Positions 4,276-10,669 of a stretch of DNA of 13,810 bases are shown piece after piece. Made by a program: the position numbers and the translations under genes. Origin of the DNA: Lachnospiraceae bacterium (GTDB lineage: Bacteria; Bacillota_A; Clostridia; Lachnospirales; Lachnospiraceae); NCBI GenBank assembly GCA_024690425.1, contig JAILCT010000007.1:1-13810 (forward strand), given 5' to 3'. Below the pieces are notes generated by a model. That model worked only from the letters and a program-made list of their open reading frames with translations, ran no database searches and was not told where the DNA came from. Within the stretch, counting starts at the first letter, position 1, and every line of letters begins with the position of its first letter.

Positions 4276-6543
4276 TTATTTTAACGTCTTCCAAATATCA
4301 CGGTCATACTCTGCGATTGTTCTGTCGGATGAGAAGAAGCCTGCCTTGGCGATGTTTGTAAGCATCTTCTTGCGCCAGGTATCGGTATCCTCGTAGTCGG
4401 TGAAGGCCTTGTCCTTTACCTTGATATAATCCTCAAGATCAAGGAGCGTCATGAACCAGTCCTTGTTGAGGAGCTCCTTGTAGAGGCGCTCGAGGTTCTC
4501 CTTATCTCCGACCTTTAAGGCTTCCTTGCTCACGATAAAGTCAACCGCCTCTTTTATGACTTTGCTCTTCTTATAGTAATCCTTCGATACGTAATCAGCC
4601 TTCTCGTAGTGTTTAATGACAGTATCTGAATCCTCACCGAAGACGTAAATATTATCCTTGCCTACAAGATCGCATATCTCAACATTGGCTCCGTCCATGG
4701 TTCCAAGGGTAACCGCACCGTTTAGCATGAACTTCATGTTGCCGGTTCCCGATGCCTCCTTGCTCGCAAGGGATATCTGCTCGGAGATATCACAGGCGGG
4801 GATCAGCCTCTCTGCATAGGATACGTTGTAATTCTCAACCATGACAAGCTTCATATAAGGTGAGGCCTGCGGGTCATTGTTGATGATCTCCTGAAGGACC
4901 AAAAGAAGATGGATTATATCCTGTGCGATCACGTAAGCCGGCGCAGCCTTGGCTCCGAAGATGAATGTCATCGGACGGACGGGCTTCTTGCCTGACTTTA
5001 TCTCAAGATATTTATGGATAATGTAGATGGCGTTCATCTGCTGACGCTTATACTCATGCAGGCGCTTGATCTGGATGTCGAAGATTGACTCGGGATCGAT
5101 CGTAACGCCTTCCTTCTCCTTGATATAGGCTGCCAGCTCAAGCTTCTTATCCTTCTTGATTCCGGCAATCTTATCAAGCACTGCTGCATCACCCTTAAAG
5201 TCAAGCAGCTTCTTAAGTTCATCCGCATCCTTCTTCCAGCCATTTCCGATAAGCTTCGTGATCTCGTCGGAAAGCTCACGGTTGCAGGACATAAGCCAGC
5301 GGCGGAAGGTGATACCGTTGGTCTTGTTGTTGAACTTCTCAGGATAGATATCATAGAAGTGCTTAAGCTCGGAATCCTTAAGTATCTGGGTATGCAGGGC
5401 CGCAACACCGTTTATCGAATATCCGAAATGGATATCTATATGGGCCATATGTACCCTGTCATCGTCATCTATGATCCATACACGTTTATCGCTGTACTTC
5501 CTTACAGTAAGGCGGTCAAGCTCCTTTATGATGGGCACGAGCTGCGGAACAACCTTCTCAAGGTATGAAAGAGGCCACTTCTCAAGTGCTTCCGCAAGGA
5601 TCGTGTGGTTGGTATAAGCACAGGTCCTGCTTACCACGTCGATCGCATCCTTCATGGTGAAGCCTTCCTTCTCGGTAAAAAGCCTTATAAGCTCTGGGAT
5701 GACCATCGTGGGATGGGTATCGTTTATCTGGATGGATACATGCTCATGGAGCTTGTGGAGATCGATGCCCTTGCTCTTTACATCCCCAAGGATCATCTGT
5801 GCACCGTTGCTTACCATGAAGTACTGCTGATAGATCCTTAACAGGTTGCCTGCCTCATCAGAGTCATCCGGATAGAGGAAAAGGGTAAGATTCTTCTCTA
5901 TAGCCTCCTTGTCAAAATCAATCCCGTCCTTTACAAGCGATTCATCCACTGTCTCGATATCAAAGAGATGAAGCTTGTTGATATCGCCGCCGTATCCCAA
6001 TACATCTATATCGTAGAGCCTGCTCTTTACCTTGCGGTCACCGAATTCAACCTCGTATGAGATATCGGTATCACGAAGCCAGCCTGTAGGTTCTATCCAG
6101 TCATTCTTCTCGGCTGTCTGCTTATGATCCTTAAATACCTGCTTAAAGAGGCCGAAATGGTAGTTAAGACCTATACCGTCTCCCGGTATTCCAAGTGTTG
6201 CCATTGAATCAAGGAAACATGCCGCCAGCCTTCCTAGACCACCGTTACCCAGTGAAGGTTCCGGCTCGATCTCCTCAAGGGCTGCGAGTGACTTTCCATT
6301 CTTCTTAAGGACATCAGCCACCTCATCATATATCTGCAGATTTATGAGGTTGTTCGATAAGAGCTTACCTATAAGGAACTCGGCGGAGATGTAGTAGACC
6401 TTCTTGGGGCCGCTTATGATCTTCTTCTCGCTCATCTGCTTCTTGACGAAGGTAAGCAGGGCGTAATAGAGTTCCTTATCGGTGCAGGTCTGGATCTGCT
6501 TGTTGTAGAGTTCCATTGTTACTTCGTTGAGTTTCGCTTCCAT
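4276..6543 (-). CDS. glgP: Glycogen/alpha-glucan phosphorylase
   Basis: This enzyme releases glucose-1-phosphate from the non-reducing ends of glycogen or maltodextrin using phosphate and pyridoxal phosphate (PLP). The phosphorylase signature [13 protein letters not shown] is intact, with the PLP-binding lysine at about residue 604, followed by [14 protein letters not shown]. Near the N terminus, [19 protein letters not shown] and [11 protein letters not shown] are typical of the family. At 755 residues it is at the short end of the family (E. coli is about 815). The reading frame is open 44 codons further upstream, but I chose the ATG at 6543 because GGGAGG lies five bases before it and the upstream codons lie in a repeat array and promoter-like DNA. 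It probably works with the downstream GH13 enzyme. Its upstream region carries a TATAAT box, three 32-bp repeats and a LacI-type palindrome. Confidence 0.95.
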
Positions 6544-6548
6544 GTGTT

Positions 6549-6554
6549 CCTCCC
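6549..6554 (-). promoter_or_regulatory. Ribosome binding site that fixes the glgP start
   Basis: GGGAGG on the minus strand lies five bases before the ATG at 6543. No comparable site precedes the more upstream in-frame ATG at 6675, whose extension reads through tandem repeats. Confidence 0.8.
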
Positions 6555-6582
6555 AATATAGAATTATATGTACTGCTTCTAA

Positions 6583-6588
6583 ATTATA
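6583..6588 (-). promoter_or_regulatory. Probable -10 box of glgP
   Basis: A perfect TATAAT on the minus strand is placed to start transcription about 30 bases before the glgP ATG. No good -35 hexamer is found at 16-18 bases; that position falls in the first 32-bp repeat. An activator-dependent promoter would fit. A second TATAAT at 6563-6568 is too close to the start codon to be preferred. Confidence 0.45.
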
Positions 6589-6601
6589 TACTTTTGATTT
6601 T

Positions 6602-6690
6602 GAAATATCATTTCCCGAACAGCTTGTGTTTTCGAAATACCATTTCTCGGACAGCTTGTGTTTTCGAAATACCATTTCTCGGACAGCTTG
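6602..6690. repeat. Three 32-bp direct repeats upstream of glgP
   Basis: Two full copies (6602-6633 and 6634-6665) and a 25-bp third (6666-6690) lie head to tail. Copies 2 and 3 are identical over 25 bp, and copy 1 differs at three or four positions. Each holds the short dyad GAAATACCATTTC or a variant, and copies join through TTTTCGAAAT. The 32-bp period is close to three helical turns, so equivalent bases lie on one DNA face. The array abuts the glgP -10 region and occupies its -35 position, suggesting a regulator-binding array. Confidence 0.85.
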
Positions 6691-6731
6691 GTCGGAGTAG
6701 AAGTATTTCCTATATGTTTTACATTAAAGTA

Positions 6732-6745
6732 GGAAAACGTTTTCC
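6732..6745. promoter_or_regulatory. Perfect 14-bp palindrome resembling a LacI-family operator
   Basis: GGAAAACGTTTTCC is fully self-complementary with a central CG, the form typical of LacI/CcpA-family operators. It lies about 190 bp upstream of the glgP ATG and beyond the 32-bp repeats. LacI-family control of glycogen or maltodextrin genes is common in Firmicutes. A LacI-family regulator is encoded at 10715-11704, but it may not be the one that binds here. Confidence 0.5.
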
Positions 6746-6755
6746 GCAACCCCTA

Positions 6756-6940
6756 TTTTATATTTTTTCAGCTCTGTATTCTGCATCTTTTTGTTTTCGG
6801 TTTTTCTGCTTTTCCAGTGTTTACTTTTTTCAACTGTTCTTCTTTATTTATAATTGTAATTTTTTGGGGGTTGTTGTTCTTTTTATTTATAGTTGTTCTT
6901 TTTTATATTCATAATTGTTCTTTTTATCTACAGCTGATCT
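6756..6940. other. T-rich tract with about 20-bp phased repeats, probably curved DNA
   Basis: The plus strand is strongly T-rich. TGTTCT or close variants begin at 6835, 6855 (TGTAAT), 6875, 6894, 6916 and 6935 (TGATCT), spaced 19-22 bp. T-runs of 5-6 bases are centred near 6862, 6882, 6901 and 6923. Tracts phased at about two helical turns usually bend DNA. No credible protein is encoded: the overlapping plus-strand reading frame of 106 codons is low-complexity Phe/Ser/Tyr and starts inside the 32-bp repeats. Confidence 0.6.
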
Positions 6941-6948
6941 TCTATCAA

Positions 6949-7321
6949 GCACGCCTATCGGGGTTCACAGGTTATGTGCGTGTAAGCTCATTCTATGCAG
7001 TTACATCCTGTACACGCAAATGCCTGTTTCTTTAATTCTGCGTGTCGGCATCAGATCGAAATCGATAAATAGAAACACGCCCAAAGGGCCCTACTCCTCC
7101 GAGGCGTGTTTGATACTGTCAAAACTGATCATCGATAACACGCCTTAATGACCATTCTTCTCTGAGGCGTGTCGATATCCTGATGAAGCTTTTTTTCACA
7201 ACACGCATATAGACTCTTGCTGTTGTACTGCGTGCTCATTAACGCTGTATAAGACATTTTCACATCAAATCCAGAGAAACATAGACACGCCAAAGGCTCA
7301 TGATTATCAATCGACGTGTCT
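6949..7321. repeat. Array of six regularly spaced ACACGC/GCGTGT hairpins
   Basis: Six successive inverted repeats share arms of the form ACACGCC ... GGCGTGT: 6949-6983, 7012-7045, 7073-7111 (9-bp arms), 7138-7172, 7201-7235 and 7283-7321. Loops are 20-25 bases. Starts are 63, 61, 65, 63 and 82 bp apart; the first four spacers are 26-28 bp. Identity continues past the arm in several copies as ACACGCC-(A/T)AA-N-G. Twelve alternating copies of one 7-bp motif are therefore present. No gene is visible. It could be a structured RNA, a binding-site cluster for a dyad-recognising protein, or a satellite-like repeat. The strand of any transcript is not clear. Confidence 0.85.
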
Positions 7322-7344
7322 CACTTCATCAATCCGGTCCAGGC

Positions 7345-7374
7345 TTGAAATTCTTGTACAACTTTTTCTATATT
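7345..7374 (+). promoter_or_regulatory. Candidate distal promoter of the lipase gene
   Basis: TTGAAA (7345-7350) and TATATT (7369-7374) are separated by 18 bases, each 5/6 to consensus. A transcript from here would start near 7382, after the hairpin array, and would carry the four 20-21-bp repeats in its leader. Confidence 0.4.
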
Positions 7375-7386
7375 TTTTCGATATAA

Positions 7387-7466
7387 GGTTACAGATCAAT
7401 GGGGCATGTTATTGATCAAAAGGGCAAGATTACAAATCATAGAGGCAAGGCTTCGTGTCAAAGGCA
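7387..7466. repeat. Four 20-21-bp imperfect direct repeats upstream of the lipase gene
   Basis: The unit is roughly TTACAGATCAAAGGGGCAAG. The ATCA core occurs at 7395, 7415 and 7436, with TGTCA in the fourth unit ending at 7460. GGCA occurs at 7403, 7423, 7444 and 7463. Spacing of 19-21 bp is two helical turns. The array ends 16 bp before a perfect TTGACA at 7483, the usual location of activator sites. LytTR-type regulators bind direct repeats of about this period, but the motif does not match their consensus well enough to name one. Confidence 0.65.
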
Positions 7467-7482
7467 GCTCATAAACATGAAC

Positions 7483-7511
7483 TTGACAATGGTGTAAATG
7501 CCTGTCAGGAT
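7483..7511 (+). promoter_or_regulatory. Candidate proximal promoter of the lipase gene
   Basis: A perfect TTGACA (7483-7488) is followed after 17 bases by CAGGAT (7506-7511), a poor -10 box. The start would be about 25 bases before the ATG at 7544. A strong -35, weak -10 and upstream repeat array fit a regulated promoter, but the weak -10 leaves it uncertain. Confidence 0.4.
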
Positions 7512-7543
7512 ATGGGTAAACTACAAAAACGGATGGTTATGAT

Positions 7544-8911
7544 ATGAAATCTCTTAAATCACTCTGGATGATAATATTGGATGCGATCGCAGTATTGGGC
7601 ATCATTGCGGCCGCGAATACATACCTGCTTATGTATACAGGGCTCTTTGGAGGAAGGAGTAGTGTATTTGACGGATGGCTCATCCTTGTCGTTATGCTCA
7701 TATCACCGGGACGGCTTTATCCCCCGGTCTTAAGCAAGAGGATAAAGGTATTAAGGAGCGGCCTTAATCTTTTGGTGCTCTTCTGTATATCGTGCTTTAT
7801 GCTCATCCTTCTTAATATATGCATGTGGACAGGCCAGACACCGCTTCCGTCCTTAACGGCACTGCCAAGCTTCTGGCTCATAAATACACTTATAACCGTG
7901 GCCGTTATGACCGTTCTCTTTTTCGCCGGAATGATCCGGGTTTACATAACAAGCGAGCAACTTGCCATAAGATGGCGTGTCCTCGGGCTGATCTGCGGCT
8001 TTATACCTGTACTTAATCTCATCCTTCTTGCCAAGATAATATCTGTTGTATCGGCTGAGGTTGATTTTGAAAATGCAAGACAGATAGTGGATGCCCTAAG
8101 AAAGGAACAGGAGGTATGCAAGACCAAATATCCCATACTCCTGGTTCATGGGGTCTTCTTCCGTGACTTTAAATATCTCAATTACTGGGGAAGGATCCCC
8201 AAAGCTCTTGAGGCCAACGGAGCCACACTCTACTACGGCGAGCACCAGTCTGCTGCGTCCGTAGCCGAATGCGGGCAGGAGCTTGCCGACCGTATAGAGA
8301 AGATCGTTCAGGATACAGGGTGTGAGAAGATAAATGTGATCGCTCATTCCAAGGGCGGGCTTGATATGAGATATGCCATAAGCAAATGCGGTGCCGATAA
8401 GTATGTGGCATCTCTTACTACCATAAATACGCCGCACCGTGGATGTGAATTCGCCGATTATCTCCTTAATAAGATCCCCGAAAAGGAACAGCAGATGGTC
8501 GCAGGGAAGTACAACAGTGCCTTTAAGAACTTAGGCGATGAACATCCCGATTTCCTTAAGGCCGTAGGTGACCTGACCCACAGTGCCTGCGAGAAGTTCA
8601 ATGAAGAAGTCAAGGATGTCGGGACCATTATATACAGAAGTGTCGGATCAAGGCTTAATAAGGGAAGCAGCGGACGCTTTCCCCTGAATATGTCATATCT
8701 GCTCGTTAAGTATTTCGATGGAGAGAACGACGGTCTTGTGGGTAAGAATTCCTTTGAATGGGGAAGAGACTTCAAATACCTTACGGTGAAGGGCGACCGC
8801 GGCATATCGCATGGGGATATGATAGATTTAAACCGCGAGAACATTCCCGGCTTCGACGTGCGGGAATTCTATATAAAGCTCGTGAACGAGCTCAAGCACA
8901 TGGACCTGTGA
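7544..8911 (+). CDS. Membrane-anchored lipase-like alpha/beta hydrolase
   Basis: The 455-residue protein has a hydrophobic N-terminal third with four or five membrane segments (about 9-31, 43-56, 72-93, 110-132, 146-168), then an alpha/beta-hydrolase domain from about 195. PILLVHGVFF is the oxyanion-hole region. Ser269 in AHSKGG is the nucleophile, Asp396 in NDGLVG the likely acid and His423 in GISHGDMI the likely base. The layout resembles EstA/LipA triacylglycerol lipases and PGAP1-like esterases; TINTPHRG after the nucleophile is typical. A membrane-bound ester hydrolase is likely, but the substrate and side of the membrane are unknown. GGATGG lies seven bases before the ATG. It is divergent from glgP across 1 kb of repeats. 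Its TGA stop lies in the first 12-bp copy of the palindromic element at 8909. Confidence 0.88.
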   Translation: MKSLKSLWMIILDAIAVLGIIAAANTYLLMYTGLFGGRSSVFDGWLILVVMLISPGRLYPPVLSKRIKVLRSGLNLLVLFCISCFMLILLNICMWTGQTPLPSLTALPSFWLINTLITVAVMTVLFFAGMIRVYITSEQLAIRWRVLGLICGFIPVLNLILLAKIISVVSAEVDFENARQIVDALRKEQEVCKTKYPILLVHGVFFRDFKYLNYWGRIPKALEANGATLYYGEHQSAASVAECGQELADRIEKIVQDTGCEKINVIAHSKGGLDMRYAISKCGADKYVASLTTINTPHRGCEFADYLLNKIPEKEQQMVAGKYNSAFKNLGDEHPDFLKAVGDLTHSACEKFNEEVKDVGTIIYRSVGSRLNKGSSGRFPLNMSYLLVKYFDGENDGLVGKNSFEWGRDFKYLTVKGDRGISHGDMIDLNRENIPGFDVREFYIKLVNELKHMDL

Positions 8912-9562: not shown

Positions 9563-10669
9563 TCATATGTCGCATACCACACGGTTCTTGCCCAGGAGCT
9601 TGCCGTCATACATGCTTTTGTCTGCACGTTCGACTGTATCTTCTATGGTTTCACCAATCCGGTACTGTGCAATGCCGAGAGTCATCGTTGCCCTTATCGT
9701 GGCCTCTCCGATGTCTATGTCCCTGTCCGATATATTCCTGCATATACGCTCTGCCACGCCGCGGGCACTCTCAATGTCTGACTTAAGAAGGATAAGTATC
9801 TCCTCGCCGCCCCATCGGCATACATGGTCATTGTCACGGACTTCACCGGTGATTATATTCGAAACCTCAAGAAGTACCTTATCGCCGGCTGCGTGCCCAT
9901 AGGTATCGTTAATCTTCTTAAAATCATCTATATCCGCCATTATAAGGCAGAAGCTCTCCTGCTTCTTAACCGCCCTGTAGCAGGACTCCTCAAGGTATAT
10001 GTCCATGCTCCGTCTGTTGAGAAGATGTGTGAGCGGGTCGAAGTTAGCCAGCTTCTCAAGTGAACTGTTCTCATTCTCAAGGTTGTGCTGCATATAATAC
10101 ACTTCAAGCGAAAAGAGGAAAGATACTATCCACAAGAGGAAAAAGGTTAACATAATATTGAACATGTATGACCTTTTAGCCACCATTTCTCCGAAGTTAT
10201 TCTCAAGGAGCGGGCCATTGATATAGCACAGCCACCTCACTCCAAGGAAGCAGGCAAATATCAGCGCCGAAGCGATAACAGGTATCGACAGCTTACGCTT
10301 AAAATAGTCAACCGTATATGTTATATAGAATGACAGTGGCACCAGGCCCAGTACATAAGTCATAAATCCCCAGTCCCATCCCAGCATGAGCGTGGCCAGG
10401 ACCGAATGCAGCATGATCTCAACAAAGGTAGCGGCAAATATATAGGTGTACTGTGAGATCACCCCCGTAATGATCGCGATCCCTGTATAGAAAAGTACAA
10501 CCACGAAGTTATATACATACAAAACCTTAAGGTCCAGCACAAGAAACCTGCACATAAGGTATAAATGCACCAGTGCGAGCAAAATCGCACTCAGCTGATA
10601 CTTCCTGCGCTCATTGAGCTTCCGCTCTCCGTTTATTATCCTTAGCAGGGCATACTTAAATGATTCCAT
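9563..10669 (-). CDS. Membrane diguanylate cyclase (GGEEI)
   Basis: The 368-residue protein makes c-di-GMP. The N-terminal half has about six membrane segments (roughly 26-46, 50-70, 76-97, 102-120, 128-148, 169-190) with no recognised extracellular sensor, then a short coiled-coil linker (193-208) and a GGDEF domain (209-368). The active site reads GGEEI (287-291), an accepted GG(D/E)E variant. The metal-binding Asp246 lies in MADIDDFK, NDTYGHAAGD follows, and an I-site RxxD (Arg278-Asp281) suggests product inhibition. GAGGAA lies just before the ATG. It follows the LacI-family gene by 45 bp with no terminator and precedes the CobU-like gene by 30 bp, so it is probably co-transcribed. It could oppose the EAL protein encoded at the left of the window. 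Confidence 0.92.
   Translation of the reverse strand: MESFKYALLRIINGERKLNERRKYQLSAILLALVHLYLMCRFLVLDLKVLYVYNFVVVLFYTGIAIITGVISQYTYIFAATFVEIMLHSVLATLMLGWDWGFMTYVLGLVPLSFYITYTVDYFKRKLSIPVIASALIFACFLGVRWLCYINGPLLENNFGEMVAKRSYMFNIMLTFFLLWIVSFLFSLEVYYMQHNLENENSSLEKLANFDPLTHLLNRRSMDIYLEESCYRAVKKQESFCLIMADIDDFKKINDTYGHAAGDKVLLEVSNIITGEVRDNDHVCRWGGEEILILLKSDIESARGVAERICRNISDRDIDIGEATIRATMTLGIAQYRIGETIEDTVERADKSMYDGKLLGKNRVVCDI

Follow-up and report, generated by a model that had tools for sequence, protein, structure and literature searches.

Tandem DNA units with short inverted arms are known as protein-bound sites from sopC of the F plasmid and from parS with its partner ParB. Other repeat sets are tied to an enzyme encoded beside them. 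REPIN elements, as outlined in PMC3116915, are inverted extragenic pairs that fall into sequence classes, cluster by the gene for their own enzyme (RAYT, REP-associated tyrosine transposase) and have dispersed copies. The loci of TIGR-Tas, as summarized in PMC12045711, hold an array of mostly 5-15 units by a single effector gene, with a repeat that is fixed per locus and variable between loci. Sets of short heptamers are also found in intergenic DNA over unrelated genes in Beggiatoaceae, where TAACTGA direct repeats near start codons are proposed to act on translation (abstract of PMC4679880). Here, we describe an array of six inverted pairs of ACACGCC-like half-sites at positions 6949-7319 of contig JAILCT010000007.1 (assembly GCA_024690425.1) from a Lachnospiraceae bacterium; the whole 13,810-nucleotide stretch that was analyzed is called the window. 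We consider this array likely to belong, as a dispersed ("trans") copy, to a family of phased inverted-repeat arrays, each version of which is tied to one protein lineage. The family is apparently an undescribed kind of DNA site in gut bacteria, and a search of the open-access literature, mainly of titles and the beginnings of abstracts, found no description of such a system.

A preliminary description of this DNA had proposed twelve copies of one 7-bp motif forming six inverted repeats, with loops of 20-25 nt and starts 61-65 bp apart among the first five. The six pairs stand, with up to two changes per half-site. They comprise GCACGCC ... TGCGTGT (6949-6983), ACACGCA ... TGCGTGT (7012-7045), two copies of ACACGCC ... 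GGCGTGT (7075-7109 and 7138-7172), ACACGCA ... TGCGTGC (7201-7235), and ACACGCC ... GACGTGT (7285-7319); neither the units nor the array is assigned a strand. Mismatches to ACACGCC number 1,1 / 1,1 / 0,0 / 0,0 / 1,2 / 0,1 from the first unit to the sixth. All units are 35 bp wide except the second (34 bp), and the loops span a narrower range than proposed, 20-21 nt. The left arms start 63, 63, 63, 63, and 84 bp apart, corresponding to six and eight helical turns, so the spacing of about 63 bp is more regular than first reported. Mean identity among the six units is 0.85 for arms, 0.31 for loops, and 0.25 for linkers (chance expectation, 0.25), which bears out the earlier view that the arms are conserved and the loops differ. 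The arms and their spacing are thus kept, and the rest is free. Units 3 and 4 are 78% alike over 36 nt, counted from one base upstream of unit 3.

The array is confirmed as real rather than a product of chance. Three exact ACACGC...GCGTGT pairs were observed in the window against an expectation of 0.00, with none in 200 window shuffles, and six relaxed pairs were counted, whereas 1000 dinucleotide shuffles of 6650-7543 gave no more than one each. The longest same-arm chain, a count that also took in pairs read across linkers, was 4 in the window and at most 1 in 1000 shuffles. The preliminary exclusion of a CRISPR agrees with the likeness of the 7-bp arms only and with the absence of Cas proteins among the nine window genes scanned by Pfam; that of a known riboswitch agrees with the lack of any Rfam match in the window at gathering scores. 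A scan of the window for tRNA and tmRNA also gave no match. A coding repeat was rejected, as 53-bp spacings are not divisible by three and no open reading frame (ORF) of at least 80 aa lies over 6949-7319.

Arrays of this kind are linked to a gene. Three genomes have ACACGC sites, two arrays (loci L098 and L175) and one pair (L174), that adjoin a gene encoding a PD-(D/E)XK-like motif. This gene was matched in 16 of 37 genomes from the genus to which L001, the nearest relative of the window found, belongs, including all five in which arrays had been seen beforehand (hypergeometric p = 0.010; 0.023 without genome G027). Matches extend to 126 of 397 sampled family genomes, with up to seven each, and to 30 of 391 class genomes (E ≤ 1e-20). 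Among the 120 listed of 200 database relatives, those with a name are called "hypothetical protein". An arm-blind scan (exact 6-mer arms, width 27-45, spacing 44-96, or 44-100 in the phasing, arm-protein, and second-set runs) covered flanks within 1200 bp of the gene at 60 loci, namely all 18 other genus matches, 39 from the top of the family list, and the three discovery loci; 54 of these had at least 600 bp on the 5′ side. The 5′ flank held at least two units at 35 of 54 loci and at least three at 24, the discovery loci not being among the 24; the 3′ flank held at least three at 2 of 56. Shuffled flanks never gave even two units (0/270), and genomic tiles gave at least three in 4 of 1084 and at least two in 13 of 1084, some of these being true arrays. 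A second set comprised 20 loci in 17 class-sample genomes, none previously used; at least three units were found on the 5′ side at 9 and at least two at 14, with corresponding 3′ counts of 0 and 1. Two observations stand beside these counts: tandem pairs lie in tiles of L008, L023, L024, L025, L035, L046, L134, and L136, and at L204 and L260 arrays of the same or complementary arm flank the gene on both sides.

Spacing within the family is quantized. The 119 spacings of the first set fall at 51-54 (58 cases), 62-65 (32), 71-75 (25), and 83-84 bp (4), and the second set adds 94-95 bp. When each of 37 arrays contributes one spacing, the Rayleigh length is 0.90 at 10.5 bp with a phase of 0.10 bp; periods of 10.25 and 10.75 bp fit nearly as well. 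Different spacings are mixed inside some arrays, for example 84, 83, 73, 83, 73 or 62, 52, 83, 52, 52, 61. A relaxed scan also returned single spacings of 55 and 72, as well as 169 over a gap in L098. Other arms are found in Lachnospiraceae in this same geometry, an outer width of about 37 bp and a spacing of whole helical turns, and such helical phasing favors a platform of double-stranded DNA.

Half-sites differ by locus (TACGGTT, TACGTG, TACAGT, TACGCGC, TACACGC, TACCTACTAA, GTACC, GATGC, and others), many containing TAC by inspection, and their similarity drops with protein distance (37 loci; Mantel r = -0.31; 0 of 10000 permutations; half-sites assigned manually for L098, L174, and L175). 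The window consensus, AAACACGCCT, is similar to those of L098 (ATACACGCAA), L174 (TTACACGCAA), L251 (cGACACGCAA), and L175 (GGACACGCTA). In the protein tree, L098, L174, and L251 form a clade with L175 near, and L198-L200, with TGCACA and ACACT-type arms, branch between. Protein loci of different clades have common upstream genes, including those for ribosomal L13 and S9 (Pfam), a GATase gene (presumably guaA), and a gene with a tRNA_anti-codon domain (presumably lysS). At L253 and L257, for example, the L13 genes are 95% identical and the linked proteins are distant (tree distance 1.65). The pairing of common upstream genes with different protein clades suggests preferred sites at which a protein-array pair has been replaced; it is also the only hint of a homing endonuclease element.

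The preliminary description had proposed searching related genomes for the ACACGC pair. Tandem patterns permitting spacings of 52-72 and 51-66 matched 3 of the 37 genus genomes (G010, G024, and G027) and 6 of 397 in the family, and exact pairs in four close genomes were limited to one or two single matches each, with no arrays. One family match (G241) is probably chance, since a reversed control also gave one match; the other five genomes carry the linked nuclease-type gene. In the arrays laid out, neighboring units are 52-54 or 61-64 bp apart. In each of G027, G349, and G272, an ACACGC array or pair adjoins the gene and a further array is found in another place, and the window array reads as a dispersed copy of this class. 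As separate observations, two arrays of G027 (L098, 4653-5045; L099, 7905-8360) share the spacing order 63, 63, 53, 53, 63, 63 with different loops, L099 having one additional 63 ahead of it; a PDDEXK_2 gene adjoins a two-unit ACACGC array at L095 (7189-8022), and a gene of similar appearance lies near the single pair at L177.

Dispersal was also followed for another arm by searching TACGGT..ACCGTA in ten genomes, four with this arm in a cis array and six others. Clusters elsewhere in the chromosome were found in three of the four (G065, G424, and G107; not G344) and in none of the six. Forward totals were 24, 27, 8, and 5 in the four (reversed control: 5, 3, 2, and 0) and 0-4 in the others. 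The eleven dispersed clusters retrieved have 4-11 units, a spacing of 52-53 (one 61), and a width of 36-37; nine lie between ORFs of at least 100 aa, two (L314 and L317) overlap with a mechanically called ORF, and three (L318, L319, and L322) lie between convergent genes. Loops are 0.68-0.84 alike within one array (six measured) and 0.41 and 0.43 alike between arrays of one genome, with arms between such arrays 0.93 and 1.0 alike. A tblastn search with 57 proteins found no homologue of the linked gene in the stretches holding these clusters (L313-L323), and a search for gene remnants at orphan arrays (57 proteins, E ≤ 1e-3; the window, L001-L051, L095-L143, and L170-L177) matched only the three known gene loci. 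The dispersed arms of G010, G024, G297, and G001 are unlike those beside the resident proteins; incomplete assemblies or gene turnover might account for this mismatch. Two further arrays were noted: one of the TACCTACT class at L127 (3267-3800), between ribosomal L10-like and CapA-like genes with an L1-like gene beyond (read from translations), and one with TGCCCT arms spaced 71, 82, and 60 at L025 (16030-16500), in a genome with two gene matches elsewhere.

The linked protein has about 265 residues and combines a coiled coil and three-stranded sheet with a PD-(D/E)XK-type nuclease domain. Its AlphaFold2 model (pLDDT 94.5) runs from a helix through the three-stranded sheet and a long helix to the nuclease domain, where motif and model place the acidic active-site residues and lysine on a restriction-endonuclease fold. 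This domain aligns with TnsA and Bax1 and with phage endonucleases; the N-terminal part is similar to coiled coils, among them Rad50 and prefoldin. Foldseek against the PDB returned nothing at E ≤ 0.001, and the single PDB match by sequence (E 0.061) was taken as chance. Members scanned matched no Pfam or NCBIfam family above cut-off, and three proteins scanned showed no transposase or Nop family in Pfam at E ≤ 1. PHROGs gave weak matches only (best E 0.001; an endonuclease family at E 0.0017). Among viral contigs, 39 stretches fit the peptide patterns and none is a relative; phage records gave two matches, and plasmid records five over 31-43%, where annotated inside larger ATPases or helicases. 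One phage record, MT839528.1 (4212 bp, human feces), encodes at 380-1060 a relative (86% of the protein covered, 31% identity, E 5e-21). The protein is predicted to be an active nuclease, and several independent lines, among them the correspondence between arms and protein lineage, suggest that it binds the array arms.

The best reading of the geometry, phasing, genetic linkage, arm conservation, and arm-to-protein correspondence found here would be a protein-DNA array system. A protein dimer would sit on each inverted pair, and with units 5 to 9 helical turns apart, successive dimers would lie on one face of the DNA, making cooperative assembly possible. An array upstream of the protein's own gene could provide self-sensing and self-regulation, and some chromosomes have further arrays with the same half-site in other places. 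A bolder extension, which we regard as doubtful, is that the protein builds its own arrays. A dimer on one pair would nick both strands one spacing apart on the same helix face, and fill-in would duplicate the unit in tandem; on this view, the window array is an old duplication product that has retained nothing but its binding arms. Such duplication would yield spacings of whole turns (5 to 9) mixed inside arrays, some arrays that repeat the entire unit including the linker, and same-arm arrays with unrelated loops at many places in one genome.

In the window, the array occupies part of a 1000-bp gap (6544-7543, no strand) read from the likely start codon of a glycogen phosphorylase-type gene (glgP; 4276-6543, minus strand; Pfam Carbohydrate phosphorylase) to the start of an alpha/beta hydrolase-type gene (7544-8911, plus strand; Pfam Palm_thioest/DUF676/Abhydrolase_1). 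The glgP start was set at 6541-6543 by the shared protein start; the mechanical ORF begins at 6675. L001, whose hydrolase is 89% identical, has both neighbors, a gap of 175 bp, and no array. L002 carries, upstream of the hydrolase, three inverted pairs (9692-9860) with different arms (CTACTAAA) and the same 63-bp spacing as the window, which points to a family defined by geometry and not by one sequence. That arrays with different arms precede an orthologous hydrolase in two species may be either coincidence or the mark of a site that regains arrays. Short tandem repeats are abundant in this gap: a 32-bp direct repeat occurs three times (6591-6690, 91% match) and was not seen as an inverted-pair array, and the array is flanked (6873-6927 and 7388-7447) by T-rich 21-22-bp repeats and by a 19-nt GTTACAGATCAATGGGGCA-like repeat in three copies.

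The placement near the hydrolase invites an operator array, through which the nuclease-type protein or another regulator would control adjacent genes, in the window glgP and/or the hydrolase. The arrays of the window and L002 are both upstream of the orthologous hydrolase despite their different arms, and cis arrays are mostly upstream of the gene. We nevertheless judge this unlikely, as convergent genes, too, have dispersed arrays between them, array neighbors have no common function by inspection, and L001 retains both neighbors without the array. A chromosome-organizing or centromere-like site, bound by a structural protein and with some other cause for the linkage of the nuclease gene, would suit genomes with several dispersed, phased arrays whose arms are kept. 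It is rendered improbable by arms that track the phylogeny of the nuclease-type protein, by the finding that none of the nine window genes scanned encodes ParB, and by an ACACGC class missing, by the pattern used, from 34 of the 37 genus genomes. The parS-like site raised in the preliminary description survives as a loose analogy only.

The same description had offered a multi-hairpin non-coding RNA beside a clustered protein-binding platform. As an RNA, the array would be transcribed into a chain of stem-loops, such as the antitoxin RNA of a type III toxin-antitoxin system or a guide-RNA array by a nuclease gene. Type III toxin-antitoxin loci do have an array upstream of a nuclease-type gene, the arrangement seen here, and pairing is seen at arm positions in 1001 of 1044 cases, although the units had been selected by their arms. 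Spacing quantized at about 10.5 bp has no reason in RNA, however, and on the gene's strand G-T and A-C mismatches number 8 and 14 of 1044 arm pairs, showing no G-T excess and no wobble bias. With no Rfam match in the window and dispersed arrays between convergent and divergent genes alike, we regard an RNA as highly improbable. Arms kept as loops drift, helical spacing, arms that follow protein phylogeny, and the lack of G-T excess all support the binding platform.

With phased sites in many sequence versions, each with its own protein, sequences can be used to test for a DNA-recognition code, and genomes show the helical phasing directly. Should the protein act on its arrays, it would represent a new route by which bacterial genomes acquire or organize intergenic DNA. 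Set against TIGR-Tas, CRISPR, parS, and known RNAs, the defining features are in part absent. Tas has a Nop domain; the three proteins scanned here gave no Nop match in Pfam at E ≤ 1, and likeness to TasH is confined to the coiled coil. Unlike sopC and parS, the linked protein is not of the ParB kind, units of 51-95 bp come in whole turns, and there are many arms. TnsA, Bax1, and phage and homing endonucleases (PD-(D/E)XK and EDxHD groups, the latter by inspection) share the nuclease fold and an E...PDF...EH pattern and differ in their N-terminal part, and we know of none with a phased inverted-repeat array. The TAACTGA sets differ as direct repeats by start codons, and the abstract of PMC4679880 mentions no linked nuclease. 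The closest logic is that of REPIN/RAYT, despite an enzyme of PD-(D/E)XK type instead of a REP-associated tyrosine transposase and a spacing that is helically phased. REPIN elements are very many per genome, compared with a few arrays per genome here. The feature by which REPIN/RAYT can be recognized, a repeat class beside the enzyme that recurs dispersed, is found for TACGGT (three of four genomes, none of six others) and in G027, G349, and G272, so that the system is best read, from its sequences, as probably following REPIN/RAYT-like logic with an unrelated enzyme.
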